A model generated the notes under the pieces. That model ran no database searches. It worked only from the letters and a program-made list of their open reading frames with translations, and was not told where the DNA came from. A stretch of DNA of 64,000 nt, taken from positions 992,001 to 1,056,000 of the forward strand of contig NZ_QYUO01000003.1 of the NCBI RefSeq assembly GCF_003591035.1, in the 5' to 3' direction. This document shows, one piece after another, positions 38,414 through 61,455 of the stretch. The number at the start of each line of letters is the position of its first letter. The first letter of the stretch is position 1. The DNA comes from Noviherbaspirillum saxi. Lineage in GTDB: Bacteria > Pseudomonadota > Gammaproteobacteria > Burkholderiales > Burkholderiaceae_D. Both the position numbers and the translations under genes were made by a program.

Positions 38414-40300
38414 TCAGAACGTTACCTGATACGCATAATCGCCCGGTTCAAGCGCGCCAAACATGATGGCGGCGCGGTATTCATCAAGCTTGACCACCGT
38501 CGGTTTTGCCAATCCCGTCTTCACCGGTTGAACAGTAGGCGGCGGGCCTTTTTGCGGCAGCATGACGATGACGCTTGCGCCGTTCAGGCGTTTTTTGCCG
38601 ACGACGGTAATGTCAAGCTCAAGACGTTTGCCGGAGCTGACGGTTGAAACCCTGAGATGCTCGCGCTCGCGCCACCAGTCGGCCACCTGTCCGGCAGATG
38701 CAAGCCAGAGCTGGTCCTTGCGCTGCTTCAGGCGTTCCAGGTAACCCGGCATGGCTTTGGCAAGCACGCTATCAGCGTGAAAATTCTGACTATGCACGCT
38801 CAACAAGCCTAGCGCGCCCTGATCGACGGCCAGGTCGAAATCTTCAATCAGTTCCTTCGTGGTTTGCTCGACATTGAGATTCTGGCTGGCCAGATTGATG
38901 TCGTCGCGTTGCGTGCGCGGCAAGACAATCAAGGCATCGTCGGGTTCGACGTCCGGCAGTTTGGAAACGATAGGTAGCCGGGCCTCGGTCCGGGACGGAT
39001 CCGCCGCATGATGACGTATGCCGGACTTATGCAGCAAGGCTTCGGTCGCGGCGTCATATCCTTCCAGCGGAGCGCGGAAACCGGTAATGGTATCGACGTC
39101 CGGAATCACTGTTGCCATCTCGGTGCGCATGATTTGCATGCGCTGCTCCTGGAGTTTCGGCGGCTGGCCCTTGAAGCCGTCATGCACGTCGGCGTGATAG
39201 CCCACTTCGAAGTCACGATGGAGCCGGGTCAGCACTTCCGGGTAACGCCGGCCTACCGAAGTAAGGACATAGAAGGTCGCGCGATAGTCGATCGCGCGCA
39301 TCATCGAAGCAAACACTTCCGCATTCGGGAATCCGTCTTCGGTATCCATTTCGATGACTTGCGCGGCACGTTTGCCGTTGGGCCATGCAGCGCGCACGAT
39401 CGCCGGTTCGCGCTGCAGCCACTGGAGCGTGTTGTCGATCACTTCATACATCATGAGCGGACGCGATTCCCACACCGATTCGGCAAATGCATAGAACGTC
39501 GTACGACTGGGACCCGGTGCTGTTTCGGTATAGACGATCGCGCCTTCGTCGCGCCGTTCGGGTTCAACGATGCGCGCCCAGTTCATGAAGCGTCCGGCGA
39601 CCATTTCTCCCTTGGCGCGCAACAGGGTTTCCGAAGTTTTGCTCAGCGGCAGGCGCTGTCCGGCCGGATGCTTGTACGTTACCGGCGATTCGCCATTGAC
39701 GATCAAATAACTGACTTCGGCCGCGCGTGGAATTTCACCTGTCATTTTCACGCCCAGCGTTTCCAGGAATTCCCATCCGGCCCAGTCGCCCTTGCCATTT
39801 CTTGAGCCGGTCGCCCAGGTAGCAAGGACGGAACCGCCTTTTTGGCGAAAGGACAGAATCTCCGCGCGCTCTTCGTCGCTCAGCGCGATGGCCGACGGCA
39901 ATACGAGCACGCCGTTTTTGAATTCTTTCAACTGGCCGGGTTCGCGAACTTCCTTGTAGGTCCGCTTGCGATTGGCGAAGTAATCACGCCAGGGGACTAG
40001 CAGGGTATCGTAGTTTCCGCCGATGGTGCCGAAGTAAGCTTTGGTCGATGGAGATGCATAGAGGATGACGTTTTCGCTTGACGATGCGACAAAGGAAATC
40101 GCGCCGTTCATGGTAATCAGCGGCACACGCCAGCCAAGCGACTGCATGACCGTGAGGTACATCAGTACCGGCACACCCACGCCCAGGATCACCATCATCG
40201 GCAGGTAAGTGCTGATTCTCCTGAAGGCAGGCGTGCTTGCGCGACGATCGACGAGGTCTGGCTTCATTCGAAAAAACGGCGAGGTAAAGAGAGCGTTCAA
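38414..40300 (-). CDS. Membrane-anchored NodB-type polysaccharide deacetylase
   Basis: A 628-residue protein: one membrane segment at residues 33-54, a periplasmic amidotransferase-like domain (about 75-200, with GVLVLPSAIALSDEERAEIL), a NodB-type deacetylase domain and a C-terminal beta domain. The NodB marks are EMDTEDGF (317-324), the metal pair His369-x3-His373 in GYHADVH, FRAP (408-411) and LLSVHSQNF. It probably removes acetyl groups from an amino-sugar polymer in the periplasm. The first codon is a TTG overlapping the upstream stop (TTGA); ATG 40267 is an alternative start. A paralogue lies at 46982. Final gene of the bcsE-OMP-GT2 operon. Confidence 0.87.
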   Translation of the reverse strand: MNALFTSPFFRMKPDLVDRRASTPAFRRISTYLPMMVILGVGVPVLMYLTVMQSLGWRVPLITMNGAISFVASSSENVILYASPSTKAYFGTIGGNYDTLLVPWRDYFANRKRTYKEVREPGQLKEFKNGVLVLPSAIALSDEERAEILSFRQKGGSVLATWATGSRNGKGDWAGWEFLETLGVKMTGEIPRAAEVSYLIVNGESPVTYKHPAGQRLPLSKTSETLLRAKGEMVAGRFMNWARIVEPERRDEGAIVYTETAPGPSRTTFYAFAESVWESRPLMMYEVIDNTLQWLQREPAIVRAAWPNGKRAAQVIEMDTEDGFPNAEVFASMMRAIDYRATFYVLTSVGRRYPEVLTRLHRDFEVGYHADVHDGFKGQPPKLQEQRMQIMRTEMATVIPDVDTITGFRAPLEGYDAATEALLHKSGIRHHAADPSRTEARLPIVSKLPDVEPDDALIVLPRTQRDDINLASQNLNVEQTTKELIEDFDLAVDQGALGLLSVHSQNFHADSVLAKAMPGYLERLKQRKDQLWLASAGQVADWWREREHLRVSTVSSGKRLELDITVVGKKRLNGASVIVMLPQKGPPPTVQPVKTGLAKPTVVKLDEYRAAIMFGALEPGDYAYQVTF

Positions 40301-40512
40301 TGTTCAGCGGACGGAGATTCCATCAGCGATGGCGGAACATAGCGTTTCAGAAAAATCGGTTCATGCGGACCGGTCGCCTGACCGTCGGACTCCTTGGCTT
40401 TCGGTTTGCGCTTGTCGCGCAGTTTGAAGGCGGCATAGGCGCCGACGCCGACGACCGTGGTGCCGATGGTCGTCACCAGGATAACCGTTGCAAGAATAGA
40501 AATCAGATCCAT
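40297..40512 (-). CDS. Small single-span membrane protein of the polysaccharide operon
   Basis: A 71-residue protein: an N-terminal membrane span (LISILATVILVTTIGTTVVG), then a basic stretch KLRDKRKPKAK and a soluble tail. It begins one base after the GT2 stop and its own stop overlaps the deacetylase start, so it is co-translated with both. Its place next to a PgaC-like synthase recalls the small partner PgaD, but the size and sequence do not allow that name. It may stabilise the synthase or couple it to the deacetylase. Confidence 0.7.
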   Translation of the reverse strand: MDLISILATVILVTTIGTTVVGVGAYAAFKLRDKRKPKAKESDGQATGPHEPIFLKRYVPPSLMESPSAEH

Positions 40513-40513
40513 A

Positions 40514-41872
40514 TCAGAGCTTTCCTTCCCGATCCAATTTGCCCCAAGTCATGGTGTGTCCGCGCCACTCTTCGATCGTGGCTAAGACTTTGGAGACGTC
40601 GATGATATTAATATAGAAAAGACGGAACATGACCGAGTAAAAAATGAGAGACGGTTCTTCTTCTTCGATCACAATGCAGTACGCGGCGGCCACTACGTCC
40701 AGTATCGTCAGCTGCAGCCACCAGTAAAAGAGCAGCACCGCCAGCCCGTAACGAATGCCGACATAACCGAAAAACAGGTTGCCCAGTATCGTCGAAAACG
40801 GCCACATGATGGCTTCGAACAGCATGTACCAGAGGATGAAGCAATTGACTCCAGCCTTGCGCGGTTGCCACAGCGCCGCACTATGCTTGCTGGTCGCCTG
40901 CAGAATACCACGCGTCCATCGATAGCGTTGCTTGAGCAGGTCGAGCAGGCGGCTCGGGGTTTCGACCCAGGCAATGGCCGTTGGTTCATACGCGATATGC
41001 CAGCCCTGCATCAATAACTTGAGCGTGAGGTCGCAGTCTTCGGCAAAGGTGTCATGGTCGTAGCCGCCGACTTGTTGCAAGACTGTCTTGCGGAACATGC
41101 CAAGCGGGCCGGGGATGATATTCACCGAACGCATGAAACTCTGGGCCTTGCGCGCCATGGCCAGGCCTTCGACATATTCCAGCGCCTGAATATTGGTCCA
41201 GATGTTTTCCCGATTGATCACCTTGACATTGCCGGCCACCGCGCCGATCCGCGGATTTTCGAAGTGCCGGATGCAGGCGCGCAGCGTATTGCGCGACAAC
41301 TTAGAGTCGCCATCCATGTTGAGCACGAACTCGCCGCGCGCGAGACTCATGCCGGTATTGAGTGCTTCGGCCTTGCCGCCATTGCGCTTGGTGACGACGC
41401 GAACCGGTATCTTGGTTTGCTCGCGCGCGACGGCAATGGCTTTTTCATAAGTGTCGTCGGTGGAGCCGTCGTCGATCACGATGATTTCGTAATTGGGATA
41501 ATCCAGTAGCAGCAGCGAACGGATCGCGGCCTGGATCACGACGCCTTCGTTGTAGGCAGGGACTACCAGCGAAATCATCGGCAGCGAGCTTTCCTCGTTG
41601 TACTTCGGGCTGACGGTTTCTTCACGCTTTGTGTACAGACCTTCAAGATGATCCATGAACGAGTACAGGATCAGCACCGCGTAGCGTATCACCAGAAGCA
41701 ACAGGAAAAACAGCAGATAGAGTGTAAGGATCGCAAGTACATAGTTTTCCAGCAGGACGCTGAACGATCCCTTCGACTGGCGCACCGAGTCATAGCTGAA
41801 CGCCAGCAGCACGCCCATGATGGCGAGTGCGGTTGCAACCCACAGGTAGCGATAAACCTTCCGGGCTACCAA
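40514..41872 (-). CDS. PgaC-like processive GT2 glycosyltransferase
   Basis: A family 2 synthase of about 452 residues with N-terminal membrane spans and a further cluster near the C-terminus. All processive GT2 motifs are intact: VVPAYNEG, VIDDGSTDDT (134-137 for DDGS), KAEALNTG, MDGDS (DxD, 187-189), FAEDCDLTLKL (ED) and QRYRW (315-319). It resembles poly-N-acetylglucosamine synthases more than BcsA and lacks a PilZ domain. The proposed start is a TTG at 41872, overlapping the TAG of the outer-membrane gene; the first ATG (41818) would cut into the first span. It is the only evidently active synthase in the locus. Confidence 0.88.
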   Translation of the reverse strand: MVARKVYRYLWVATALAIMGVLLAFSYDSVRQSKGSFSVLLENYVLAILTLYLLFFLLLLVIRYAVLILYSFMDHLEGLYTKREETVSPKYNEESSLPMISLVVPAYNEGVVIQAAIRSLLLLDYPNYEIIVIDDGSTDDTYEKAIAVAREQTKIPVRVVTKRNGGKAEALNTGMSLARGEFVLNMDGDSKLSRNTLRACIRHFENPRIGAVAGNVKVINRENIWTNIQALEYVEGLAMARKAQSFMRSVNIIPGPLGMFRKTVLQQVGGYDHDTFAEDCDLTLKLLMQGWHIAYEPTAIAWVETPSRLLDLLKQRYRWTRGILQATSKHSAALWQPRKAGVNCFILWYMLFEAIMWPFSTILGNLFFGYVGIRYGLAVLLFYWWLQLTILDVVAAAYCIVIEEEEPSLIFYSVMFRLFYINIIDVSKVLATIEEWRGHTMTWGKLDREGKL

Positions 41873-43656
41873 AGCTTTTCCAGATTGATGTTGAAGGACT
41901 TCGACCGATACGCGGCGTTGTCGCGCTGGCTCGCCATGCTCCAGAGATTGAAGCCCACACCGATGTCGTTCGAAAGCCAGCGCTTGCCGCCTGCGGACAC
42001 GCTCCAGCTGTCGCCCGCATCGCCATAAATGCGCGTGCCGGCCTGGCCCGAAACGAACAGGTTCCAGTCGGCCGCATCCCATTCGCCCAGCAGCCCGGCA
42101 TAGAAGGATCCGAAACCGATCTCGGGCGACCAGTAGTTCGGGGTATTGAATTTGGCCTCGCGCGCTTCGACGCCAACGAAGGGTTTGAGGTTGTTTCCTA
42201 AAGGCCGCAGGTTGGAGGCAAGCCGCAGATTGCCCGAGAGGATCCTGTTGCCGTCCGAGATATCAAAATAATTGAGGCGTCCGGCTACCCGGCCAAACGA
42301 AAAATCCTGAGCACCCTCCAGGCCGACATGGTTCGCGCTCAGATTGGCGAGCAGGGCATTCGGATTGACGGCGTTTCGCCCCCAGTTCACGCGTCCGAGT
42401 TCGAGCACGTTGTCATTGTCGCCAAACTTCAGGCGCGTGCTGCCGTAGAGCGTGCGATTGCCTTCGCTTGGCACGCTGAGCTCGAAACTCGGCTTCAGGT
42501 TCAATGCAGGCGCGTGATAACGTAGGGTCAGCTCCTTCTGGCGCGCCACGGTGGGAAGCTGATTGTCCTGTACACCGCTGACTTCGACTTCGATGGTGTT
42601 TGGGCCACCGCCTTCGCGCCAGCGGTGATTGATCGTTGCCGCCTTGCGCTTGATGTCTGAAGAATCCTCGGAACCGCCGGCACTGAAGGTCGTGCGTGGA
42701 CGCAGCGCGCGCTGCGCCAGGGTGACGCCCTCCTTGGCGCTGGCATTGGCGGGATCCGCCGCGAGGACTGCGCGATACAGGGGAAGGGCTTCATCGTCGC
42801 GGCCGCGCCAGCGATGCACGTTTGCCATGCCGATCCTGGCTTCATTGGCGAGCTTGCCTGCCGTCAGTCCTTGATAGATGGCTTGCGCTTCCTTCAATCG
42901 GCCGGTCCATGCGAGGCAATTGGCAATGATCAGTTGCAACTCCGGGTCGGCCTTCTCGCGCGTCATCAGCGCCAGGCCTTCGGTGCCCGCTTCATAATAC
43001 TTTTCGCTTGCGCTGAGTGTGGCGACGCGCTGCGCGCCGGGACTGCGCGCGGGCTGGGCCGGTGCCTCCGGCTGCGCCGGCGGTGTCGGGACTGCGGGCA
43101 CTTGCGGAGCCGGGCGCGGTTCGGCATGAAGTGTCGCGCCGGCGGGCGGCATGGTTTGATACTGCGACAATTGATGCAGAGCGCTCGCCGGCGATTCGCG
43201 CATGAGCGGACGCGTTTCCGGCACAGGTGCCGGGGCAGGGCGTGGCCGCAACTCCGGGATAGGCGCGGGCGCTGCGTACTGCTCGTTCCGGCGCAGGGAT
43301 TGCAATTTTGCTTTTGCCGCGTCGGCAAAAGCGGTGCCTTCCAATGCTTCGAGCTGCATCCTCGCCTCATCAATCCTGCTGATACGCTGCAAACTGTCGG
43401 CGACGATAAAGCGAAGATGATGATTCCAGGGTTGTGACAACAGGTCGTTCAAACCGCGCGCCGCCGCACCTTCGTATTGGCCTTTCTTATGCAGATCAAT
43501 CGCCGCGCTCACCGGCGTGGTGTTCGCGCCGGCCAAGGTGCTGAGCGACAGTCCGATGCACCATACCAAGTGACGAAGCACAGTCTTCCGTCGAACGCGC
43601 GGGGTACCCGAGACAGTAGGCGATTCAGAAAGGGTGGCAGGCCTGGTTGAAATCAT
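41866..43656 (-). CDS. TPR/beta-barrel outer-membrane polysaccharide exporter (PgaA/BcsC-like)
   Basis: A 596-residue protein with a signal peptide (HLVWCIGLSLSTLAGANTTP region), periplasmic TPR repeats (for example YRAVLAADPANASAKEGVTL), a Pro-rich spacer, and a C-terminal half of alternating strands (NRTLYGSTRLKFGDNDNVLE) ending in LEKLW, an aromatic end typical of barrels. The ATG at 43656 was chosen because upstream codons run into intergenic sequence. It overlaps the GT2 start. It is the only recognisable barrel in the locus and the probable outer-membrane exit for the polymer. Confidence 0.82.
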   Translation of the reverse strand: MISTRPATLSESPTVSGTPRVRRKTVLRHLVWCIGLSLSTLAGANTTPVSAAIDLHKKGQYEGAAARGLNDLLSQPWNHHLRFIVADSLQRISRIDEARMQLEALEGTAFADAAKAKLQSLRRNEQYAAPAPIPELRPRPAPAPVPETRPLMRESPASALHQLSQYQTMPPAGATLHAEPRPAPQVPAVPTPPAQPEAPAQPARSPGAQRVATLSASEKYYEAGTEGLALMTREKADPELQLIIANCLAWTGRLKEAQAIYQGLTAGKLANEARIGMANVHRWRGRDDEALPLYRAVLAADPANASAKEGVTLAQRALRPRTTFSAGGSEDSSDIKRKAATINHRWREGGGPNTIEVEVSGVQDNQLPTVARQKELTLRYHAPALNLKPSFELSVPSEGNRTLYGSTRLKFGDNDNVLELGRVNWGRNAVNPNALLANLSANHVGLEGAQDFSFGRVAGRLNYFDISDGNRILSGNLRLASNLRPLGNNLKPFVGVEAREAKFNTPNYWSPEIGFGSFYAGLLGEWDAADWNLFVSGQAGTRIYGDAGDSWSVSAGGKRWLSNDIGVGFNLWSMASQRDNAAYRSKSFNINLEKLW

Positions 43657-43800
43657 GGTGGTCGCGATATGCAGTGTTAGGGCTGGCGCGATTGTCTCGC
43701 GATGTTTTTGGTTTGGCGGTCCAGGCGGGAACAGTTCATCTGGATGCATTGTTCGTATGTATGTGCGCGCTGCATGCCGGCCGTTGTCGCTGGGCGACCC

Positions 43801-45750
43801 TCACAGGCCAGCCGGGCTAATAGTGTCTTCCTTCGGCTGGGTCGCTGGCGTACTGCGGCTTGCGCGCGGAAAAGCCTTCTTGCCGTATGCGCTCTCTTTA
43901 GTTGAATCGTCATAGCTGAAGCGCGGCCCGTCCGCCTGCCTGTCCAGGCCTTGCACCGGCGCCGCCGGTATGGGCGCGGTCCTGTCGGCAGTATCGATTT
44001 GCGGTGCCGCCGGATGCGCATATTCCGGTCTGGCCGAAGGCGTTTCAAACGGGCGAGAAGCAGATGACACGGCCGGGCGCATGGCCGGTTTCGCGTAAGC
44101 GACGGCCGATGTGGCAACACTGACCGCATGCGGTGCGGTTACTTGCTCAGCCGGTGCCTCTTCTTCCATCTCAACTGCAGGCAGCATCGATGAGTAGTTC
44201 GGCAATTCTCCCTGTTCGGCCGCGCGCGTCAGGCCTGCGAGTTCGAGCTCAATGTCATGACGGTTGGCCGCAAATCGCACCTCCTGCAGGATTTCATCGA
44301 CCGGCATTCCGAGAATGCGCTGCAAGGTCGGCAGAAGCACTGCCTGCGGACAAGCGTTCAGGAAGATATAGCAATGCTGGCCATCCGAGGAAATCAGGTC
44401 GCCCGGACGCGACAGGGCGCTCGAGATAATGACATCGACCATTTCCATGGCTGCGACAGGCCGTCCTATGACCATTGCATAGGGAATATTCAAGGTTTCC
44501 GCGCGATTCAGGATAAGTTCCACTTCGCGGGTGAAGCGCGTCGGCACCAGGTAGCCGCGCAGCCGTGTCGGCAATACGCTGGCCAGTGCCGCTTCGAAAT
44601 TGATGTTGACGTCGCGACTGAAGATCTGCCCGCCGAGCGACTCGATCAGCAGCGGAAGGCGGCTAGCGGGAACGTCGCGGTGAACCACCAGATTGACACC
44701 CAGACGCAATAGCAGCGCTTCATTCTGGTAGCGCAGAGAGGCGCCTTTTTCCCGAACGATGATGCGTACCTGGCGGCCGAGGCTGAGGCGCAAGGTATGC
44801 GCCGCTTCAGCCAGCTGCCGGATATTGCCATCGCGGGAAAAGCTCAGGATGAGTGTCGCCGACCGCTTACCGCGCGTCGCATGCATCATGCCGACCAGCG
44901 TATCCACATGCTGCCAGACCCCGGATACCTGCTGCGCGAGGCTGCCCAGATCCGGATCCATGTAAAAGAAATGCTGCTCGCCGGCTGGAACTTCCTCTAT
45001 AGGCGTCTCGGTATCGGTTTGGGTCGCGGCTTGTTCCGGAGCGGTTGTCTTTGTCGACGCTTCATAGAAGCCAGATTCCAAGGACCGCAGATGGTAATTT
45101 CGCGCAGCAATCGTCCCTTCAGGCGATTGCCAGTAATCGAAGGTCAGTTCCAGGCCGTTTTTGTCTGCGCCCAACCGGGCAATTCCGGTCAGGTTATCCA
45201 TCAATGCATTGATGGCGGCTGCATGCGTTGCGGTGGCACGGGAAAAAACCAGCAAAGCGGTCACGCGGCGCTGCTCGAACCATTTGCGCAGGGTGTCGAT
45301 CTGATCGAGCGCCAGCGATATATCGTGCAGCGCGAGCAATTCGTCGGCCTGGTCGAACAGGATGTAACTGTTTTCCGTGACGTTGAAGTGCTCCAGTTCC
45401 CGCAGAAACATGTCGGTGCCGAAGCGGAACATCCTTTTGGGGAACTCGCTTTGCATCTCGAATACGCTCAGGCGCTCCGTCGCGAGATGCGCGTTCGTAT
45501 CAAGATGTCCAAACGACTCTACACGTTCAAGAAAAACTTCAGGATGCGCCGGGACGACCACCGTGCACCGCACGTTATCATTCAGCGCAGCGCCGAGGCT
45601 TGCAGCCAGAACGGGATAACGTGCCGGCGGGGTCTCCGCAACGAGCGCATACATGCCGCCAGAAATCAGGCTGTCGGAAAGATTGGGCAGACCACGGATT
45701 CCAAGACGCAGGTCTGGCGCCGCGAGCAGAGAATTGGAAGAATCATTCAT
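43801..45750 (-). CDS. bcsE: BcsE, c-di-GMP-binding cellulose regulator
   Basis: A 649-residue cytoplasmic protein. Residues 1-230 are the degenerate ATPase-like N-terminal part, 270-420 include RQVRIIVREKGASLRYQNEA and LLLRLGVNLVVHRDVP, and the GIL domain follows with the c-di-GMP motif Arg-Pro-Gly-Asp (448-451) in SRPGDLISSDG. A low-complexity tail of about 120 residues rich in Ala and Pro ends the protein. BcsE normally stimulates BcsA together with BcsQ. Here it heads an operon with the barrel protein, the PgaC-like synthase and a deacetylase, so it may regulate that synthase instead. Confidence 0.9.
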   Translation of the reverse strand: MNDSSNSLLAAPDLRLGIRGLPNLSDSLISGGMYALVAETPPARYPVLAASLGAALNDNVRCTVVVPAHPEVFLERVESFGHLDTNAHLATERLSVFEMQSEFPKRMFRFGTDMFLRELEHFNVTENSYILFDQADELLALHDISLALDQIDTLRKWFEQRRVTALLVFSRATATHAAAINALMDNLTGIARLGADKNGLELTFDYWQSPEGTIAARNYHLRSLESGFYEASTKTTAPEQAATQTDTETPIEEVPAGEQHFFYMDPDLGSLAQQVSGVWQHVDTLVGMMHATRGKRSATLILSFSRDGNIRQLAEAAHTLRLSLGRQVRIIVREKGASLRYQNEALLLRLGVNLVVHRDVPASRLPLLIESLGGQIFSRDVNINFEAALASVLPTRLRGYLVPTRFTREVELILNRAETLNIPYAMVIGRPVAAMEMVDVIISSALSRPGDLISSDGQHCYIFLNACPQAVLLPTLQRILGMPVDEILQEVRFAANRHDIELELAGLTRAAEQGELPNYSSMLPAVEMEEEAPAEQVTAPHAVSVATSAVAYAKPAMRPAVSSASRPFETPSARPEYAHPAAPQIDTADRTAPIPAAPVQGLDRQADGPRFSYDDSTKESAYGKKAFPRASRSTPATQPKEDTISPAGL

Positions 45751-52451: not shown

Positions 52452-55114
52452 GGGGATCTTCTCGTTGCTCGTGCATATAGACGCGGATTGGTTGAGGTTG
52501 CCATTTTTAACTTGACGCCTTCATTGTCCGTTTCCACAGGGGGGCTTGCCGGCTGTGAGCTGCCGCTGGTCGGTGCGCGAAATACCGGGTCCGTGTACAG
52601 CGGATCGTTCGGCGGGTAGACACGCGCCGGTTCAGGTTCGTAGCGTGCGACGTGGACAGGCGCGTAGCTGGCAGCTTGCGTCTGGGCCACTGGTTGGCTA
52701 TACGTTACCGGTTTGTCTGTGTAGACGATGGCGGGCTCGACTGAATATTCGGTACGACGTGCCGGACCATGGCCGCTAAGGATTGCGCCGGGAACCATTG
52801 CAAGCGACCTGACGTAAGGATTCGGCTGCGTCGGGTCAAGCGAGGAAACAGGCGCTGGAATCGGCAACAGGTTGGGCTGGCTGCTGGAAGGCGTGCCCGG
52901 TCTCGGGGCGAGCGCGACAGGTCCTTCATCGACCAGGCGCAGCAACAGATTCCGCGGCGCGGGGACGAAAGAATTCCGGTCCCACTCCATGGTGTAGGCA
53001 CGCTGAAAATAATCGCTTGCCCGCGGCAGATTGCCACGCGCCCGTTCGATGCGGCCGGCAGCCGACAATGCGCGCGGGTGATTCGGCGCCAACCGTAGCG
53101 CTGCTGCGGCATGAGCCTCCGCCTTGTCTAGCGCCTTCAGGTCGATCGCGATTTCCGCGGCAAGCAGGCGATGTCCGAAATCGTCGGGCTCGCGCGTGAT
53201 GGCGGTTTCGACAAGAGTCAGAGCCTGCGCATGTTCGGCGGTCGCGCGGTGAATCCGCGCCAGTGAGATGACAACACGCGTATCGCTGGTCCTCTGCGCA
53301 ACGGGACGAATCATCGCACCGGCTTCGGCCAGCCGACCAGATTCGCGCAGGGCTTCGGTCAGGCGCAACGTATAACTGAGAATGATGCGGTTGACTTCTT
53401 CCTGCTGCATGGTGGTCAACCGGCCGGGCGCGGCGAGATCACGCAGAACAGCGGAGAGCTCCGCATCCTGATAGGTGTTGAGCAGCATCTCGGCATAGGT
53501 AATCCGCGTCGCGACATTGTTCGGTCCGCTGCGTCCAAGCACTTCACGCATGATGCGCAGGCCCTTGCCGGACTGTCCCAGCGCTACCCATCCTCCCGCC
53601 ACAACCGACAGCATGGCATTGTTGGATTGCGCTTCGAACTGCAGACGTTCCATCAGCGACTGTGCCTGGCCGGTTTCTCCTTGCCGGTAGAGCTGCCGTA
53701 CGCGCAGGACTTGCACGTTCAGCCACATCTGACGCTGATCTCTCACCATGTCGGCGGTACGCTGGGCAGCCGGGATACGGTCGAGCATGATGAGTCCGTC
53801 CAGCCATTTTTTTTGCGAGGCCAATACATTGGCGCGTGCATGCAAGCCATCGGGGTGATCGGGGTTGCTGGCCAGCAGATCGTCGAGCAGGCTGCCGGCA
53901 CTGTCCATCGCGCCCAAACGCTCATATTGCCGGGCCAGCGCCAGACGTATGCTGGTGTTTGCCGGATCAAGCAGCATGGCGTTTTCAAGTTTGGCGGCTG
54001 CGGCGCCATGGGCGGCGGCGCGTTCATCGGCGAGCGCCTGCTTTACCAGCGCCGCCGCCTTGCCCTGGTTGTTGCCGCCATCCAGAACATCGGGCGCGGA
54101 GGGCGCGGGCGCCGCAATCATTGCGGCTGGCTGCGGCGCCGTATTCGTAGGCGCTACCCGTTCCGGCTCCTGTTGCGGCAATGCGCGAAGCCGGTTACGA
54201 ATTTCGGCGTCATTCGGAAAACGCTGCAGATAGGCCGAATACAGAGACTGATCCCCGGACCTTGGCTCCAATGCAAGCAGTGCCTGACGCCAGACCTTTC
54301 TGGTGTCCGGAGAAGTTTGTGTGCCGCTTGGTAAGGCGCCGAACTGGCGAACGCCTTCGCGGCGCGTTGCATCGCGAACGGTCAGATGACGGGCAAGCGC
54401 GGCCCGATAAGCTGCGTCATCAGGATTCTTGCGTATAAGATCTTCCAGGCTTTGCCTGGTTTCCGGCCATTTTTCGTTGACCGCACTTGAGGTTTGAAAC
54501 TGCTGTATCGATATGCGGGAAGTACCGCGCGTCTCGGCAGGCTTGTCAGAATTCTCCCTGGTCGCGGCGTCGTCCGGCCGTGGTTCGGCGCTCGGTTTGG
54601 CCGCTGCGGTTTCAGTTGGCTTGCTGGCAGCAGGTTTGTTTGCCGCTGCATCAGATCGCTTGTCGGAAGCTGCTTTCTCGCTGCCGGCCTTGTCGGTCGT
54701 CGTTTTGTTTATTGCTTCCGCAGGCCTGGATGCCAGCGGTTCCGATTTCGGCGTGACCGCTGCCGGCTTGGGCTCGCTGCTTGCCTTGCTACGGCCCAGT
54801 GCGGCAGCCAGCTCCTGCAGTCCGGCCGGCGGCGTCGGCAGGCGGCGCGCGCGGTTGTACAGTGCTTCCGCTTCGCGTGTATTGCCGGCGCGCGCTTCGA
54901 TCATGCCGAGCCTAACGAGGGCTTCAGGATGCCTGGGATCGGTGCGCAGCAGCTTGCGCCAGATTTCAGCGGCCAGATCGTCGCGATCCTTTTGTTGCCA
55001 GGTACGCGCCTGATCCGCCATCTGGCTGGAAATGAGATCGTCAGCCGGCCATGCCGGCTGAGCAAATGGCAGCAGGACCGGCACAAGCCATGCCATTTTT
55101 TTCATGTTTCGCAT
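52448..55114 (-). CDS. BcsC-like periplasmic TPR protein without a beta-barrel
   Basis: An 888-residue protein with a signal peptide (MAWLVPVLLPFAQPAWPA), TPR repeats, an Ala/Lys/Pro-rich spacer at about 110-200, a second long TPR array (for example SYTLRLTEALRESGRLAEAG and ALRLAPNHPRALSAAGRIER) and a Pro-rich tail with YSVEPAIVYTDKPVTYSQPV. It keeps the BcsC position directly after bcsB. Ordinary BcsC continues for some 300 residues with an outer-membrane barrel, which is absent here: the gene ends with a basic tail. The barrel function is probably supplied by the protein at 41866. The frame is intact, with no sign of frameshift at its end. Confidence 0.85.
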   Translation of the reverse strand: MRNMKKMAWLVPVLLPFAQPAWPADDLISSQMADQARTWQQKDRDDLAAEIWRKLLRTDPRHPEALVRLGMIEARAGNTREAEALYNRARRLPTPPAGLQELAAALGRSKASSEPKPAAVTPKSEPLASRPAEAINKTTTDKAGSEKAASDKRSDAAANKPAASKPTETAAAKPSAEPRPDDAATRENSDKPAETRGTSRISIQQFQTSSAVNEKWPETRQSLEDLIRKNPDDAAYRAALARHLTVRDATRREGVRQFGALPSGTQTSPDTRKVWRQALLALEPRSGDQSLYSAYLQRFPNDAEIRNRLRALPQQEPERVAPTNTAPQPAAMIAAPAPSAPDVLDGGNNQGKAAALVKQALADERAAAHGAAAAKLENAMLLDPANTSIRLALARQYERLGAMDSAGSLLDDLLASNPDHPDGLHARANVLASQKKWLDGLIMLDRIPAAQRTADMVRDQRQMWLNVQVLRVRQLYRQGETGQAQSLMERLQFEAQSNNAMLSVVAGGWVALGQSGKGLRIMREVLGRSGPNNVATRITYAEMLLNTYQDAELSAVLRDLAAPGRLTTMQQEEVNRIILSYTLRLTEALRESGRLAEAGAMIRPVAQRTSDTRVVISLARIHRATAEHAQALTLVETAITREPDDFGHRLLAAEIAIDLKALDKAEAHAAAALRLAPNHPRALSAAGRIERARGNLPRASDYFQRAYTMEWDRNSFVPAPRNLLLRLVDEGPVALAPRPGTPSSSQPNLLPIPAPVSSLDPTQPNPYVRSLAMVPGAILSGHGPARRTEYSVEPAIVYTDKPVTYSQPVAQTQAASYAPVHVARYEPEPARVYPPNDPLYTDPVFRAPTSGSSQPASPPVETDNEGVKLKMATSTNPRLYARATRRSP

Positions 55115-55115
55115 A

Positions 55116-57407
55116 TCAAGCCAATGGCGCTTTCTTGAATCGTTTCGACATCAAGCGACGCAGGCTACGATAGCCGAGGGCAGCCAGCAATGCACTGATC
55201 GTCAATGCAATGAATGCAAACAGCAGCGGATGATCCGAAAAGAACCAGCGAAGCTTGCTGAAGGCCGGCAAGGAACCAAGCGTGTAGGTCGGGCTGACCT
55301 TGGTGAAATTAACGCTCTTATCGTCAATGATCGCGAAATCGCCTTGAATCTGGCTCATGCGTTCGGAGTCGATCAATACATCGGCGATTTTGCGCAGATC
55401 GGCGGGACGGTCGGCATGCAGGAAGACCACGCTGCGCGACGCCTGCAATGGAGACTCGAAACCCATGATGGCGGCCAGGCTTCCATTCCCAACGAAACTC
55501 AGGCTGCCCTTGACGACCGAGGCCGATTGATCATCCGGGCGATCCCAGCGGTAGGTGGGCAGCCAGGACTTTGCCGGCGCGCGGACGCGACGCTCGCCGT
55601 TGATTTGTATCATTGGCAGCAGGTCGCCCCATTTCGACATCAGCATCTGGCTGTTGGATGAACCGATCACGATCAGGTCCCGGTCGGAGGACTTGTCGAC
55701 ATCGGCCGCGGTGATGACGGCATGCCGTATCGACGGATAGCCGGTGGCCTCGCCCATACGTCCCATCAGTGTCATGTACAGGCCCAGTTCGTCGGCGTTC
55801 GGACGGTCCGGCAGCACTACGGCGGTTTCCGACAGATCGGCCAGGCGGGTGTATGGATAGCCTATGTTGGCGAAATAACCCAGATTCGGCATTTCCGCAT
55901 ATTGAGGAAAGCCGCTGAAATCGATGGTAGTTTCCGGATCGATTGCGCCCTGGAGATTATTCGGCGGAAGGTTCTTGCATTCCCCATCCCTGATCACTTC
56001 AAACGCATAGGTAAATTGCAGCTGGTCGCGGCCGCCTACCGTATAGGGCGGCACGAAAAGCGATTCTTCCCGCACTGTATGGTTCGTGGTGCTGACCGGC
56101 ATCAAGCCGCCAAGCTGGACTGCTTTCTTGTAAGGCTCATTGAGCGCCACGGTATGCAGGAAGCTCGAATTCAGTCCTACCGCAAGACTGGAATTCCTGT
56201 GCTCGGGCAGGCGTGTCGCACGATACTTCAGCTTCATCGGTGCGCCCGGCGTACGCCAGGTAAACACGTCCGGCGGTACGCGGTAATTTACGCGTATCAC
56301 TTCCGGGAAATAGCCTTGTACTCTTAATTCGGTCGGACGCGCCAGCTCGCCCAGGCGTACCGGGCGATCGAGCGGTACCCATGCCGGCGCATCGTATGGC
56401 TTGCGCGGCGCGGCATCGGTCTCCTTGGTGACGGCAACCGACTGGCCTGTGAAGGTGGGGCTGACCAGCGCCAGCGCTCTGGCAGCACGCGCAAGTTCTT
56501 CATCGTTGCCGCCGGTGACCAGTAACAGCTTGGCAAGGGAGTTGGTTGGATGCTGCAAGACCGACACGGTGGCGCCCGGACCGCCGCGCAAGCCGCCGAT
56601 GCTTTCACCGGCTTGCATGAAGATGACGGCATTACCGTCCGGTAGCGTATTCATATGCACGGGAAACTGTGCACCCCGGCTTCCCGCCTGCAAGCCGAAC
56701 CACGATGCCACGATGCCGGCTGCCTTGATCGTTCCGAACGAGGGCGTACTTGTGAAAACGAAGGGCAGCTTCAACGGCATGTTGTCGCGGCTATCGAAGA
56801 ACGGAGCGGGCAAATTCTTGAGATCGTTTGATCCGGAAATGGGCGCCAGCGTCAATTCGAGACGGCTGAGATCGCTCACCGTCAGCCACAGGGAGGTGTG
56901 GAAAGGATCTTCGCACTGGCGCGTATAGTGCCCGATCAGATTGAATCGCAATTCGTTGTTTTCGCCGAACAGCCGAGGGTCGAGATTGATTTCGCGCGTA
57001 TTGCCGACGCCTTTGTTTTGCGGCAGCGCTTCGACCATCGCCACGCGTTCATTCAGCAATATCCGAAGATGGCTGAGGTCGGGCAACAAGGAAGGTGAGT
57101 AATCATAAGCAATGCGAAGCTTGGCGCCGACCACGATTTCGTCTGCGCGTATCGAGAACCCGAGCGTCTGCGAGCCCTCGACGCCGCGCAGCTTGACCGA
57201 CGACCATGCGCCCATTTGCCGGAATGTCAGCGAGACCGTGCGTTGTTTGGGCGCAGACCCCGAGTGCGCTTCCGTGGCTTCATCCGATTTTTCCTTGCGC
57301 GGTTTCGTCTCGGCGGCCGTGGCGGTGAGCGAGGCTGCAATGGCAAAAAGGAGAACGCCCAGCAGTGAGGTCCTTGATTGGCGCCAGAAGCTTCTTTGCT
57401 TAGTCAT
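55116..57407 (-). CDS. bcsB: BcsB, periplasmic co-subunit of cellulose synthase
   Basis: A 763-residue BcsB with a signal peptide, jelly-roll and flavodoxin-like carbohydrate-binding domains (FRQMGAWSSVKLRGVEGSQT, SFGTIKAAGIVASWFGLQ, DRDLIVIGSSNSQML) and the C-terminal membrane anchor (HPLLFAFIALTISALLAALG). The length is typical. It overlaps bcsA-like by 8 bases. BcsB guides the nascent glucan across the periplasm and anchors BcsA; that it is complete while BcsA lacks catalytic residues suggests a retained translocation role. Confidence 0.93.
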   Translation of the reverse strand: MTKQRSFWRQSRTSLLGVLLFAIAASLTATAAETKPRKEKSDEATEAHSGSAPKQRTVSLTFRQMGAWSSVKLRGVEGSQTLGFSIRADEIVVGAKLRIAYDYSPSLLPDLSHLRILLNERVAMVEALPQNKGVGNTREINLDPRLFGENNELRFNLIGHYTRQCEDPFHTSLWLTVSDLSRLELTLAPISGSNDLKNLPAPFFDSRDNMPLKLPFVFTSTPSFGTIKAAGIVASWFGLQAGSRGAQFPVHMNTLPDGNAVIFMQAGESIGGLRGGPGATVSVLQHPTNSLAKLLLVTGGNDEELARAARALALVSPTFTGQSVAVTKETDAAPRKPYDAPAWVPLDRPVRLGELARPTELRVQGYFPEVIRVNYRVPPDVFTWRTPGAPMKLKYRATRLPEHRNSSLAVGLNSSFLHTVALNEPYKKAVQLGGLMPVSTTNHTVREESLFVPPYTVGGRDQLQFTYAFEVIRDGECKNLPPNNLQGAIDPETTIDFSGFPQYAEMPNLGYFANIGYPYTRLADLSETAVVLPDRPNADELGLYMTLMGRMGEATGYPSIRHAVITAADVDKSSDRDLIVIGSSNSQMLMSKWGDLLPMIQINGERRVRAPAKSWLPTYRWDRPDDQSASVVKGSLSFVGNGSLAAIMGFESPLQASRSVVFLHADRPADLRKIADVLIDSERMSQIQGDFAIIDDKSVNFTKVSPTYTLGSLPAFSKLRWFFSDHPLLFAFIALTISALLAALGYRSLRRLMSKRFKKAPLA

Positions 57408-59565
57408 TTCTCTTTTTCCAAAATCGTATCCACTCGTCTTTACGTATCGAACTCATGTATTGACCGGGGTTTGTTGCAAAATCAAGTACGGCGGTCAGTG
57501 CGCTTACAAGCCCTTTGCTGATCCACGCCGGAACGAGCTGATCGGCATGTCGACCGGCCAGCCATTTCGGCCAGTCGTCTCCGCGCGACAAGACGCCCGC
57601 GGCGAGAGCATTGTATTGCTGCTGCATTTGATCGTCGATCTTTACGTGCAGCGTATTATTTTCCTGCGTGACGACTTGCGCAAGAAAGATGAATTCCTGG
57701 TGGCCTTGAAAGAGCGATAAGCTTATTGCGGCCCCTGCCTCGACTGTCACTGCCTTCGGCAGTTTGAGCGTCAGGGCGACATCTGGAAAGTTGGCCGTTA
57801 CGCAAGACATGGTTCTACCGTATGGCAGTCTCACCATTGCATGCATCGCTGAGCTCAGCCGCGTGTGCCTGCGAATTTCTCTTGCCTCTTCGGCCACTGC
57901 AAGCGACGACGTTAGCAGCATCAGATTGACGCCACACCATAACAGGTAGGGAAGGATTGCTTCGTAAATGCTCGCCTCGGTTGTGAGCAGATAAACAAGC
58001 CCTGCGCCCAACCCTGCAAGATTGAGTGTGAAAACGGCGAGAAAAGGAATCGCGTCGGTCCAGCTGAACACCTCGGCCTTTGCATCTTGGGAGTCGGATC
58101 GGAGCCGCAGTGCTTTGCCAAGCCGGGTGCGAATCAGGTTTAGCGTGGTCGGCACCAGGATGTAACATGCCAGCAGCGATTCCCGGATATCGGCCAGCAA
58201 ACCGAAGCGGTGCGGTCCTTGTATGCGCGACAACACGATATGACCGTGTATGAAGTGAGGTAGTGCGTATGCAGCCAGCAGGTCGGGCGAGGATCGGATC
58301 AAGGTGACACCGGTCAGCAGATAGGCGACCGGTGCGGTATAAAAAATTAGGCGCGGAAAGACATAATAAAAATTGAACATTCCTTCCAGTTCAAGCAGCC
58401 ATTGCTTGGCGCGCAAGGCCATTCTCGAAAAGGGATGATCCACCCGAAAGATATCGGTATTCGTCGCCAGTGATGGTTCCCCCGGCCTGCCATCGGCGGC
58501 TGCGTCGCCCCCCGTGCCAATATAGGCGATGCCGTAACCAAGCGCTCGCAGCTTCAGTGCGAGCGGCTGATTGATACGGTCATTTGCGGTCTCCGTATCG
58601 ATTGCTTCGGCAAGGGCGGAACGCCGGAACAGGGCACAGGAAGCGTCCCTATCGCTTCCGTTCGACAGCCGCAGGCTGGTGGCTGTCGGTGGCGGCACCA
58701 GAAAATGATAGGGTGTCTGCAACATGCCGAGCCGCGCATCTCTTGCAAACCACCCAACAACCGATTTCAGAAAGCCCGTGCCGCAGTCATGCGCGCAATC
58801 CAGAACCGTAATGAATTCGCCGCTGGTTTTTGACAATGCAAAAGCGATCGTGCTTAATCTGTCCTGGGTCTCGACGGGAGCAGCGAGATAAACGGCGCCG
58901 ATAGCATCAGCGACTGCCTTCACATCGTCCCTATCGTCACCATCGAGCAAGTAGAGCTTGATTTTCTTTCGTGGCCATTCAAGGGCCGCGGCCTTGCCGG
59001 CATGTGGTTCGATGGCGGCTGCAGACTGTCCGTGGCAGAGGACAAATACATCGATTGTCGGCCAGCTTGCCAGGTCGGCAGGCATGGGGACGGCGTCACG
59101 CCGTATTGGCCAGATAGCGCGGATCAATCTGATCGCGGCAAACAGGGCAAGATACAGTTCCGCCGCACAAAGACAGAATCCGAGGGCGAAATCTATTGTG
59201 AGTCCATCGGCAAGCGTCTGGGTAAAGCGCCACAGCAGATAGCGCGACGTCACGACCAGCGAAAAAATTGCCAGCACCAGGGTCATCATCAGTCCAGCGT
59301 ATCGACGCACATATAGAGCGACGCACACCAGAATGCTGGAAACCACAATCTGGCTGTTCAGCGAAAGATCGACCGACACGATGGCCCCGAACAGCATCAG
59401 GCAAGCCATGCATATGGGCAGCCCGGCCGTAGACCATAGGGATGCCTTTGCCAGCCGGGCACCCCATTGATTTACTTTTCCCCGCAGGTAGGCTTTCTGC
59501 CAAGCCGCGGCGGAGGGCCTGCCCCAACGCTCGCGCCAGAGCGAAAGTACTATCTTGGGATTCAT
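57400..59565 (-). CDS. BcsA-like protein without recognisable catalytic and PilZ motifs (pseudo-synthase)
   Basis: A 721-residue inner-membrane protein with the full BcsA layout: N-terminal spans, GT domain, spans, C-terminal PilZ-like domain. Family-level matches are clear (LQTPYHFLVPPP, ASCALFRRSALAE, YYVFPRLIFYTAPVAYLLTG). Yet the key motifs differ: the UDP-binding PTYNE reads LCHGQ (176-180), DDG reads DGDD (208-211), DxD reads DCA (256-258), TED is replaced by AND (327-329), and no QxxRW is found at 355-385. In PilZ the DxSxxG motif reads NFPDVA (592-597). The frame is intact, so loss of catalysis appears adaptive. It may act as a channel or scaffold for the GT2 at 40514. Confidence 0.85.
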   Translation of the reverse strand: MNPKIVLSLWRERWGRPSAAAWQKAYLRGKVNQWGARLAKASLWSTAGLPICMACLMLFGAIVSVDLSLNSQIVVSSILVCVALYVRRYAGLMMTLVLAIFSLVVTSRYLLWRFTQTLADGLTIDFALGFCLCAAELYLALFAAIRLIRAIWPIRRDAVPMPADLASWPTIDVFVLCHGQSAAAIEPHAGKAAALEWPRKKIKLYLLDGDDRDDVKAVADAIGAVYLAAPVETQDRLSTIAFALSKTSGEFITVLDCAHDCGTGFLKSVVGWFARDARLGMLQTPYHFLVPPPTATSLRLSNGSDRDASCALFRRSALAEAIDTETANDRINQPLALKLRALGYGIAYIGTGGDAAADGRPGEPSLATNTDIFRVDHPFSRMALRAKQWLLELEGMFNFYYVFPRLIFYTAPVAYLLTGVTLIRSSPDLLAAYALPHFIHGHIVLSRIQGPHRFGLLADIRESLLACYILVPTTLNLIRTRLGKALRLRSDSQDAKAEVFSWTDAIPFLAVFTLNLAGLGAGLVYLLTTEASIYEAILPYLLWCGVNLMLLTSSLAVAEEAREIRRHTRLSSAMHAMVRLPYGRTMSCVTANFPDVALTLKLPKAVTVEAGAAISLSLFQGHQEFIFLAQVVTQENNTLHVKIDDQMQQQYNALAAGVLSRGDDWPKWLAGRHADQLVPAWISKGLVSALTAVLDFATNPGQYMSSIRKDEWIRFWKKRND

Positions 59566-60326
59566 TGGTTAAGCGTGTCGATCAACCATGTCGAAAGACG
59601 CGCAATATCATGACTGGCTTGTCCATGCGGGTCGTATGCCAGCACGGGTTGCTGGAAGGCCAGCGCTTCGCTCACGGCTTCATCCGAGTGAATGCCGATC
59701 GGCGCAAGCCGGCGACCGAGATGCTGCCGCAACAGATCGACGACGTCGCGGCTCAAGGGTTCGCTGGTATCGACCTGATTCAATATGTACATGTTGCCGA
59801 GGTCCGGGCGCAGGTCCGATATGTCGTCCAGCCAGGATTCCATTGCCGGAATCGTTGCGTACGATCCTGCATCTGCCAGCAATACGATCAATATGATGTC
59901 GGCGCAGGCGAACACCTGCTTCAGATAGACCGAAGGACCGGGCGGCGTATCGATCAGTACGACCGCATTGTCTCCAAGTCCCGCACGCTCGATCTGATGG
60001 CCAAGCCAGTTCGGCTCATCGGCCAGCAAGGTTTCAAAGGCTTCACGATCCGCCTCGTTGCCTGGTCCGTAACGCAGGCAGGCGACGTCAAATTGGGTAG
60101 GCTCGGCGATGTCCCGCCAATTCATATCTTCCAGCGATTGCTCACAGACGCCACTGAGGTCGGACGTATCAAGTCCGAAATGCCAGTGCAATGCGTTCTG
60201 CGGATCCAGATCGACGACCGAGACCCGGCCAGGGCCCAGCTTTGATGCAATCGCAGCAGCCAGATTGGCAGTAGTCGATGTCTTGCCGACGCCGCCTTTC
60301 ATTGAAACGATGCCAATGACGCTCAT
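59562..60326 (-). CDS. bcsQ: BcsQ MinD/ParA ATPase (copy 2)
   Basis: A 254-residue ATPase: MSVIGIVSMKGGVGKTSTTA contains the deviant Walker A, followed by DLDPQNALHWHFGLD, NAVVLIDTPPGPSVYLKQVF and PIGIHSDEAVSEALAFQQPV. It overlaps bcsA-like and the bcsP-like gene by 4 bases each. This copy has the canonical position just before bcsA, while the paralogue at 51253 lies after the TPR genes. Both keep their ATPase motifs. Confidence 0.92.
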   Translation of the reverse strand: MSVIGIVSMKGGVGKTSTTANLAAAIASKLGPGRVSVVDLDPQNALHWHFGLDTSDLSGVCEQSLEDMNWRDIAEPTQFDVACLRYGPGNEADREAFETLLADEPNWLGHQIERAGLGDNAVVLIDTPPGPSVYLKQVFACADIILIVLLADAGSYATIPAMESWLDDISDLRPDLGNMYILNQVDTSEPLSRDVVDLLRQHLGRRLAPIGIHSDEAVSEALAFQQPVLAYDPHGQASHDIARLSTWLIDTLNQ

Positions 60327-60967
60327 CGTTTTCCTAACCGCCCGAAGAATGAAGTCCGGTTGTCGGTACGTGTTCGTGCAGGTTCTTCCTTGCCTTCCAG
60401 CCGCGCAAAGAGACCCGACAGGGATTGCTCATTGTCGGATGCAGCAGGTGCCTGGGGTGCGGCCGGCAGCGGCTCACGGTTGTTCTTTCTGAAGAGCCCG
60501 GGGCGCGCCGTGGTTTCTTCCGATGGCGCCTCTTCCTCGACAGGCTTGGAAAAAAAGAAACCCCGTCGTTCCGCAGGCTGTTCCTGTACTTCCGGCCGCA
60601 TGTCCCGGTGGCCGGTTTCCGCGATTTCCTTCGTCTCTGCGCGTTGCTGATGGCGCGGGCTGATGGCCCGGGTCGGCTGCTCTGCAGCCATCTTGGTCAG
60701 GCTCTGAGCCAGTTTGTCCCCCAGCCCGGGCAAAGTCAGGGCGGGCGTACGGAGGCTAGTCCTGGGTTTGCCGGAACTGCCCCAATGCTGCTTCGCGTCT
60801 TCCGTCAATGCAGGCGTTTCTACCTGTTTTTTGGGCGAAACGGCCTTGAACAAGGGCCAGCGCTGTTCAGCCGCGCGGACTGCGCCGCTATTGGATGCCC
60901 GGAAATTTGCGTCATCGGCACCGAGCGAGCGGAACAGGCGAGAGACATCTTCATTGGATTTTGGCAT
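60323..60967 (-). CDS. bcsP: BcsP-like regulatory protein
   Basis: A 214-residue hydrophilic, largely disordered protein. The N-terminus NEDVSRLFRSLGADDANFRA resembles BcsR/BcsP starts and the C-terminal SLSGLFARLEGKEE the BcsP end; the middle is rich in charged residues, Pro and Gln, with repeated FFFSKPVEEE, GLFRKNN and FFGRLGKR-like phrases. It is placed between bcsD and bcsQ as in type I cellulose loci of betaproteobacteria, where such proteins help organise the synthase. Confidence 0.78.
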   Translation of the reverse strand: MPKSNEDVSRLFRSLGADDANFRASNSGAVRAAEQRWPLFKAVSPKKQVETPALTEDAKQHWGSSGKPRTSLRTPALTLPGLGDKLAQSLTKMAAEQPTRAISPRHQQRAETKEIAETGHRDMRPEVQEQPAERRGFFFSKPVEEEAPSEETTARPGLFRKNNREPLPAAPQAPAASDNEQSLSGLFARLEGKEEPARTRTDNRTSFFGRLGKR

Positions 60968-60990
60968 GGCAACACTCTCTCAATGTTTGT

Positions 60991-61455
60991 TTAACGACCG
61001 AAGCGCAAGCGGAGTTCCATGCCGTCCACGATGTCACCTGTACTGCGTACGACCATTTTGTTACTTGCTCCCAGTACGGCAAACACGGTCTGATAAAAAC
61101 CTTCCAGGAAGCCGACGCTCCAGCCGAGCGCTTCGTCACCGAATGCTTCGGCCAACGGCGCTGCCTGGTGCGTGATATCGATATATCCTTTTAGTTCATT
61201 GAGATCGACCCAGCCCCAATTCAAGCGTGACCAGAAATCGTTCAGACTTTCTTCCAGTTGGTCGAGGCTTTGCATGCCTTGAAAATGTGATTCGGCATTT
61301 TTCGCGAAGCGCTCTCCGATATTGAAGAAGAGATGATGCAAATCTTTCGCATCGGCGTATGCCGACATTTCTATGGCCATGGCACGAAGTATGGGCAGCC
61401 ATTGAAGGGGCACCTGCTGGGTTCTGAAATATTGTTGTATATCGTTGATTGCCAT
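60991..61455 (-). CDS. bcsD: BcsD, cellulose synthase subunit D
   Basis: A 154-residue BcsD with HHLFFNIGERFAKNAESHFQ, DQLEESLNDFWSRLNWGWVD and ALGWSVGFLEGFYQTVFAVL. In Komagataeibacter BcsD forms a periplasmic ring that helps align glucan chains, so its presence marks a type I locus. ATG 61455 was chosen because AGG lies 8 bases upstream; ATG 61461 is also possible. It is first in an operon of nine tightly spaced or overlapping genes running down to 50150. Confidence 0.9.
   Translation of the reverse strand: MAINDIQQYFRTQQVPLQWLPILRAMAIEMSAYADAKDLHHLFFNIGERFAKNAESHFQGMQSLDQLEESLNDFWSRLNWGWVDLNELKGYIDITHQAAPLAEAFGDEALGWSVGFLEGFYQTVFAVLGASNKMVVRSTGDIVDGMELRLRFGR

Follow-up and report, generated by a model that had tools for sequence, protein, structure and literature searches.

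Comparison with described synthase-dependent systems

The described systems closest to the locus considered here are those that secrete cellulose and poly-N-acetylglucosamine (PNAG). The type I and hybrid Bcs systems of Betaproteobacteria comprise bcsPDQ, some of them with bcsE (as given in the available part of PMC11470070), and the Pga system is defined by PgaABCD (available parts of PMC7112194 and PMC5933820). Here we analyze a locus that combines elements of both, located at positions 38414-61455 of a 64,000-nucleotide stretch of Noviherbaspirillum saxi DNA (assembly GCF_003591035.1, contig NZ_QYUO01000003.1, positions 992,001 to 1,056,000 of the forward strand), the whole of which is termed the window. 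The description that fits the locus best is that of a Bcs system whose dead synthase subunit, which we term psA, serves, or at least lives with, a PgaC-like synthase of glycosyltransferase family 2 (GT2). The reading that we favor, with a probability of roughly 0.6, is that of a synthase-dependent exopolysaccharide system in which a cellulose synthase has turned into a conserved non-catalytic subunit.

With the type I and hybrid Bcs systems the window shares BcsD, BcsP, BcsQ, BcsB, BcsE with its RxGD motif and the BcsC-type TPRs, and its relatives also possess an alginate/Wss-type acetylation set. It departs from them in having a dead BcsA, no detected GH8 endoglucanase (BcsZ) and a BcsC-type protein without the barrel, and in adding a second GT2 that is intact and is accompanied by a barrel, a deacetylase and a GH18 hydrolase of its own. 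Similarly, a PgaC-like GT2, TPRs with a 16-strand barrel, a deacetylase and a glycosidase recall the Pga system. However, the GT2 scores below the PgaC cut-off, the accompanying peptide with one transmembrane (TM) segment has no PgaD match, the deacetylase and GH18 are separate rather than fused as in PgaB, bcsE lies within the cassette, and a Bcs scaffold is attached. A precedent for the pairing of a BcsB-like subunit with a non-BcsA GT2 is provided by the sfz/sfb stalk cluster of iron-oxidising bacteria, although there the GT2 has an EpsE-like N-terminal domain and the available part of the account (PMC8250860) does not mention a degenerate BcsA. As in the BcsEFG arrangement of Escherichia coli (PMC11470070, in its available part), bcsE is followed by same-direction genes for a one-TM peptide and a polymer-modifying enzyme; in the window, however, the barrel and GT2 genes lie in between, a deacetylase takes the place of the phosphoethanolamine transferase BcsG, and the peptide lacks detectable homology to BcsF. 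We found no account, in the open-access literature searched, of a BcsA that is dead yet conserved.

A preliminary description of the window had proposed such a hybrid locus, and profile searches of the window proteins confirm that it is real: bcs-type and PgaC-like genes are present together, including those for BcsD, BcsP, two BcsQ proteins, BcsB, BcsE, a GH18 protein and two NodB-fold proteins. The co-occurrence of the GT2 with bcs genes that it suggested looking for is likewise observed across genera. The locus is not a chance assembly, since its gene set and order recur in G006 (N. galbum) and G008, both of the same genus as the window, and large parts of it recur in other genera.

The degenerate BcsA

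psA is encoded on the minus strand at 57400-59565 as a 721-aa protein with TM regions, a GT2 core that appears dead and a PilZ-like domain lacking DxSxxG. A profile scan of the window proteins gave no Pfam match for it, and it failed both cellulose synthase models tried (365 of 992 bits for NF008558, 311 of 699 bits for TIGR03030). Nevertheless, its residues 61-672 align with E. coli BcsA at 6.6e-89 (phmmer), and on this similarity, together with the placement of the psA clade inside the BcsA tree described below, psA is judged to share common ancestry with BcsA. To characterize its divergence, 40 psA sequences (24 proteins from a search, 15 from loci, and the window copy) were aligned with 32 canonical BcsAs. 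P0013 (the window itself), P0039 (a fragment) and L006, L057, L060 and L140 (partial or duplicate) were left out of the tree and counts, and near-duplicates such as P0022 and L022 remain among the 40.

The full catalytic set is present in none of the 40 psA sequences, whereas every catalytic residue checked is present in all 32 canonical ones (the PilZ Ser in 31/32). The TED Asp survives in a single psA, as does the QxxRW Trp, the Arg of the latter motif is lost throughout (0/40), and the QxxRW segment is mostly deleted. Of the DDG motif the first Asp is kept in 36/40, and of DxD the second Asp in 14/40. In the window copy the DxD position reads DCAH, and TED and QxxRW are absent. In the PilZ domain the Ser of DxSxxG is retained in 0/40 and its Gly in 1/40, the site reading [N/D/S]FP in the psA rows printed with a Pro fixed in 40/40, while RxxxR is partly kept (each Arg in 26/40). 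The window psA retains RRHTR and has NFPDVA in place of [D/N]xSxxG.

Among 85 columns of the glycosyltransferase (GT) core that are invariant in canonical BcsAs, 13 are kept at 90% in psA and 41 fall below 30%; of 12 such columns in TM1-4, nine are kept and none falls below 30%. Moreover, P594, P666 and P679 are fixed in 40/40 psA sequences and found in 0/32 canonical ones, and because of these psA-specific fixed residues plain decay is counted against. The GT fold is predicted to persist. Taken together, the motif losses indicate, with near certainty, that psA is catalytically dead. That it is merely a frameshifted or mis-called bcsA was considered and rejected, given that it reads as a single 721-aa frame and that losses of these kinds are shared by 39 relatives. 

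Could psA still be an enzyme with an unusual active site, in which case two polymers, or a copolymer, would be produced by the locus? The widespread first Asp of DDG would allow a nucleotide pocket to persist, and the predicted GT fold also counts in favor. This is opposed by the almost complete loss of the TED Asp and of the Arg and Trp of QxxRW, and by the distribution of GH8 considered below, and we regard it as scarcely credible. The copolymer of glucose and glucosamine envisaged in the preliminary description is less likely than a polymer made by the GT2 only, because the glucose synthase is dead; as a leading idea it was rejected for want of an intact glucose synthase.

The intact synthase and the cellulose enzymes of related genomes

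The GT2 gene lies on the minus strand at 40514-41872, begins with a TTG at 41872 that overlaps the stop of the upstream barrel gene, and encodes 452 aa, not the 522-aa ORF (open reading frame) first taken for it. Its DDG, DxD, ED and QxxRW motifs are kept in 17/17 aligned copies; this and the partner motif counts given below omit rows scoring under 500 bits for GT2, 600 for NodB_A, 500 for BcsE and 250 for GH18. The best named family is PgaC/IcaA (TIGR03937, 221.7 bits, as against 102 for NodC and 77 for CelA), and in a genome-wide search with this model the GT2 was the best of 6 matches at 223.4 of 422.3 bits, the next reaching 61.3. Since the GT2 falls below the equivalog cut-off of this family, a substrate of N-acetylglucosamine (GlcNAc) can only be inferred. 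We consider a GlcNAc-type product probable. As had been proposed, the GT2 is the evident synthase, being the only one with intact motifs while the ORF in the BcsA slot is a degenerate BcsA, and it is very probably the only synthase of the locus.

The preliminary description named, as a finding that would refute it, a bcsA of ordinary type with intact catalysis at some other place in the genome. None was found in the N. saxi assembly (6.5 Mb, 3 contigs, 99.76% complete), and the claim stands: TIGR03030 gave no match above its cut-off, its three matches being psA (in two pieces) and the GT2, PF03552 and GH8 (PF01270) gave none, and there is one BcsB match only.

In broad samples the GT2 orthologue is rare (5/294 genomes of the family, 2/399 of the order), and psA-like matches under 1e-100 were confined to G000 (the window genome), G006 and G008 in the family sample and to the window in the order sample. 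Weaker psA-like matches, for some of which the motifs were read, proved canonical in G007, G008, G023, G110, G124, G240 and G550. The orthologue, at 75-85% identity, is nonetheless present in 13 of the 15 other psA genomes, and all 17 genomes found to carry it (these 13, the window genome, G190, G240 and G550) have either psA or a canonical-type BcsA. GH8 was detected in 7/19 genomes (G008, G190, G240, G296, G297, G301 and G550), which are those with canonical BcsA, that of G190 being classed by match and not by motifs. It was detected in 0/12 of the remaining genomes, all psA carriers without canonical BcsA and most of them drafts.

Partners of the synthase in the cassette

The GT2 belongs to a tightly packed minus-strand block running from 45750 to 38414 in the order bcsE-TPR/barrel-GT2-peptide-NodB_A. 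These five genes are contiguous in G190, G240 and G550 as well as in the 13 psA genomes, with the qualification that contig ends truncate NodB_A in G295, G297 and G306 and that bcsE of G306 is split into two ORFs. The first gene, bcsE (43801-45750; PF10995, 1.5e-79), encodes the RxGD motif for cyclic di-GMP (c-di-GMP), kept in 15/15 aligned copies and matching R415TGD of E. coli (for its function see the available parts of PMC11470070 and PMC7439463). The 627-aa ORF at 41866-43749 combines TPRs with a barrel of 16 strands in a predicted model (of the 571-aa database version), making it a candidate outer-membrane polysaccharide secretin. The preliminary description had called this barrel PgaA-like; the protein matches PelB, PgaA and BcsC equally. 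In G008 (contig G008:C56, L060 919-2643 and 1-1250) a second paralogue of the barrel protein, with 505 bits to the window barrel, and a further ORF with weak NodB_A/NodB_B similarity are situated just beyond the cassette. In G240 and G190 the cassette is accompanied by two BcsQ genes and AlgX-resembling ORFs, with no psA (L150, L152 and L154), and a canonical BcsA of G240 lies within a 1510-aa ORF on another contig.

The small membrane protein that had been noted is indeed encoded, at 40297-40512. This 71-aa peptide is nearly invariant over its single TM segment among 17 homologues (the G300 copy included). It is proposed as a BcsF analogue, which it resembles in having one TM segment and, in the window copy, an RYVxP tail. 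This is a likeness only: no Pfam BcsF match was obtained up to an E value of 10, and a local alignment score of 23 against BcsF compares with a shuffle mean of 21 and was reached by 154 of 500 shuffles. The last gene, at 38414-40300, encodes NodB_A, a 628-aa protein with a membrane-anchored N-terminal part (hydrophobic segment) and a NodB-fold deacetylase domain (PF01522, 1.6e-6), in which HxxxH is kept in 14/15 aligned copies, all but that of G296.

Beyond this block, on the plus strand at 46919-48751, lies a gene for NodB_B, a second deacetylase-fold protein of 610 aa (PF01522, 6.8e-14). The window copy retains HxxxH, RAP and the late His, with an Ala after MDTE; in the N. galbum copy and in eight divergent ones the HxxxH pair is gone, together with most of the remaining motif residues. 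The NodB_B-like ORFs in which deacetylase motifs are lost in this way are those of L131, L132, L134, L136, L137, L138, L141, L143 and L057, and to judge from these residues such proteins are candidates for a second pseudoenzyme in loci of this type.

The 367-aa GH18 hydrolase, encoded on the minus strand at 50150-51253 (PF00704, 1.2e-24), keeps the DxE of its motif, as do 13/13 aligned rows, three of which are second copies of the same gene; its relatives in the PDB are YdhD, a cortical-lytic enzyme, YaaH and chitinases. The gene follows bcsQ2 in several psA loci. It had been taken to replace the usual endoglucanase, and while GH18 is present and GH8 was not found, a simple swap for BcsZ is rejected: G550 has both, and GH18 is missing after bcsQ2 in the psA loci L020, L021 and L024. 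Within the locus, NodB and GH18 are encoded separately and not as a fused PgaB; no genome-wide PgaB search was made.

Phylogeny and origin

In a BcsA tree rooted on Enterobacterales-type sequences all 40 psA sequences group in a single clade (support 0.853, stem 0.66). Its nearest canonical BcsAs are P0035-37, followed by those of G301, G296, G297, G550 and G023, the deeper order of which is weak (supports 0.315 and 0.769). In G301, G296 and G550 the GT2 cassette adjoins the canonical BcsA, and in G297 the two lie at contig ends, on separate contigs with a part of NodB_A on each; the contig of G023 is too short to show this neighborhood.

In G550, from another family of the order, one stretch encodes MBOAT, AlgX-like, AlgF-like and NodB-like proteins, bcsE, the barrel, GT2, peptide, NodB_A and GH18, and then bcsQ2, the small TPR protein, a 1392-aa BcsC, bcsZ (GH8), bcsB, an intact bcsA, bcsQ1, bcsP and bcsD. 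The BCSC_C barrel domain scores 330 bits in this BcsC, and about the same in the G296 homologue; it was found neither in the TPR protein of the window nor in that of N. galbum. The MBOAT, AlgX-like and AlgF-like genes represent O-acetylation of the alginate/Wss type. An AlgX-like gene is present in L131, and ORFs resembling AlgX/AlgF/MBOAT-type genes were noted by eye in other psA loci. Relative to that of G550, the window locus lacks the acetylation genes, catalysis by BcsA, bcsZ and the barrel of BcsC, and otherwise equals it. Given that the G550 cassette adjoins intact bcsA, bcsZ and full bcsC, the window looks like a two-synthase locus in which the cellulose chemistry is dead and BcsB/D/P/Q/E are retained. 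It would have arisen from a locus such as that of G550, from which catalysis by BcsA, the cellulase BcsZ and the barrel of BcsC were later lost. From the tree and parsimony the state in G550 is inferred to be the older one; the occurrence of psA and intact BcsA in one genome (G008, G296, G297 and G301) would also fit duplication.

The Bcs scaffold and neighboring genes

The remaining Bcs genes form a second tightly packed minus-strand block from 61461 to 50150, in the order bcsD-bcsP-bcsQ1-psA-bcsB-TPR-smallTPR-bcsQ2-GH18. The scaffold subunit BcsD (60991-61461, 156 aa; PF03500, 1.3e-16) starts with an ATG at 61461, although its ORF reaches 61539 if a TTG start is used. BcsP (60323-60967, 214 aa) has a BcsR-like N-terminus and matches NF040718 (BcsP) with 28.9 bits and PF10945 with 20.6 bits, both below cut-off. 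The ParA-like ATPase BcsQ1 (59562-60326, 254 aa) scores 216.9 bits against TIGR03371 (cut-off 158), and BcsQ2 (51253-52143, a 296-aa ORF) 190.5 bits over residues 49-292; as homology begins only at residue 49, the true start of the latter is probably near 51999. Next to psA is bcsB (55116-57407, 763 aa; PF03170, 9.6e-210), followed by the BcsC-type protein of 888 aa (52448-55114) and a 153-aa protein matching TPR families (51990-52451), with homologues in G006, G008 and G550. The 888-aa protein has TPR-type matches, as the preliminary description held, but no match to the BcsC barrel PF05420, in a search that did not extend to the rest of the genome. The related claim of a cellulose-type exporter is only half right, because the locus protein lacks the barrel of BcsC and a distinct secretin of the TPR/barrel type is encoded.

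Between the two blocks, NodB_B is preceded on the plus strand by a Pro-rich ORF (46467-46922) with no Pfam match and, by hydropathy, a possible membrane segment. Two further plus-strand ORFs (48818-49372 and 49580-50053) are not counted as members of the system. Outside the locus, a 235-aa ORF adjoining bcsD (61952-62659, minus strand) contains an alpha-amylase C-terminal all-beta domain (PF02806, 1.9e-8), and about 5.7 kb from the cassette end an EAL-domain protein is encoded on the plus strand at 31885-32760 (PF00563, 1.8e-64). The latter is likely, from its domain, to be a c-di-GMP phosphodiesterase and could be relevant to control of the cassette.

Alternative explanations

A number of observations weigh against psA being a functional partner of the GT2, and most would be accommodated if the bcs operon were a relict, in decay, of a cellulose system that has been lost, with the cassette an independent PNAG-like system that shares only its address. 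psA changes faster than its partners: a single psA pair passed the similarity filter, as against 18 BcsB pairs (65-100% identity, one of them a same-genome duplicate), and this pair, L019/L020, both genomes of which also carry canonical BcsA, has an omega of 0.248 versus 0.095 for its BcsB, a value that also fits relaxed constraint. psA and GT2 are on different contigs in 6 of the 14 genomes with both (window included) and on the same contig in the other 8. The cassette occurs without psA in G190, G240 and G550, which have a canonical-type BcsA instead, and two psA-bearing metagenome-assembled genomes, G303 and G305, show no GT2 orthologue. These two, however, are drafts and the only such cases among 16 psA genomes (window included). 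A relict would also hardly be expected to yield 40 open psA reading frames with fixed residues of their own, the BcsB, BcsQ and BcsD encoded beside psA stay conserved, and the supposedly independent cassette has its own bcsE, a Bcs gene. On balance we consider such a relict unlikely.

The GT2 reaches only about half of the PgaC threshold, NodB_A is degenerate in G296, as is NodB_B in N. galbum, and in three psA loci no GH18 gene follows bcsQ2, all of which count against the favored reading. If the GT2 had instead replaced BcsA as a glucan synthase, the product would be a glucose polymer, O-acetylated in the relatives, and the NodB proteins would remove O-acetyl rather than N-acetyl groups. The low PgaC score, the retention of BcsB, a glucan-associated subunit, and the O-acetylation genes of G550 with their look-alikes in several psA loci are consistent with this. 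It is at odds with the preference of the GT2 for PgaC/IcaA over NodC and CelA, with the GH18 being closest to chitinase-type and spore glycosidases, and with the lack of an MBOAT match among the main ORFs of 38414-61539; a glucan therefore seems to us improbable.

Proposed function and implications

The system with a non-catalytic BcsA thus remains the preferred reading, and it suggests a machine rebuilt for a different extracellular sugar polymer with the dead enzyme kept as a scaffold. In such a machine the GT2 would polymerize a GlcNAc-type sugar across the inner membrane. In the periplasm the polymer would be partly deacetylated by NodB_A, to which NodB_B may add; GH18 would trim it, and the TPR/barrel protein would export it. 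BcsE would sense c-di-GMP, with the 71-aa peptide keeping it near the synthase like BcsF in E. coli, and psA together with BcsB, BcsQ, BcsP and BcsD may form a membrane platform that positions the machinery. That psA and BcsB constitute a working platform appears somewhat more plausible than not. In E. coli, according to the available part of PMC11470070, the one-pass peptide BcsF recruits BcsE, BcsR plugs the GT-PilZ interface of BcsA, and the modifying enzyme BcsG is recruited by the BcsA N-terminus; BcsP is modelled there as acting like BcsR. Analogous contacts can be envisaged in the window: psA may have kept its binding to BcsB, BcsQ and BcsP, and BcsE may be tethered to the GT2 by the peptide. 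A more tentative and at present doubtful extension is that dead BcsA and BcsB act as an allosteric and structural subunit for another GT2 within one inner-membrane complex, with BcsE and the BcsF-like peptide giving c-di-GMP control and a BcsD/BcsP scaffold aligning the complexes, such that ordered chitosan-like fibres are spun by a cellulose-built machine.

If the favored reading is correct, the locus would be a bacterial case, extending over several genera, in which the BcsA catalytic subunit is now a pseudoenzyme and the secretion scaffold has passed to another synthase. Scaffold would thereby be separated from chemistry, which predicts that BcsB/D/P/Q/E are not specific to cellulose. Annotation by bcs gene names would call such strains cellulose producers, which they probably are not. 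The psA proteins would also provide natural inactive BcsAs with which to map partner recruitment onto the parts of the Bcs complex.

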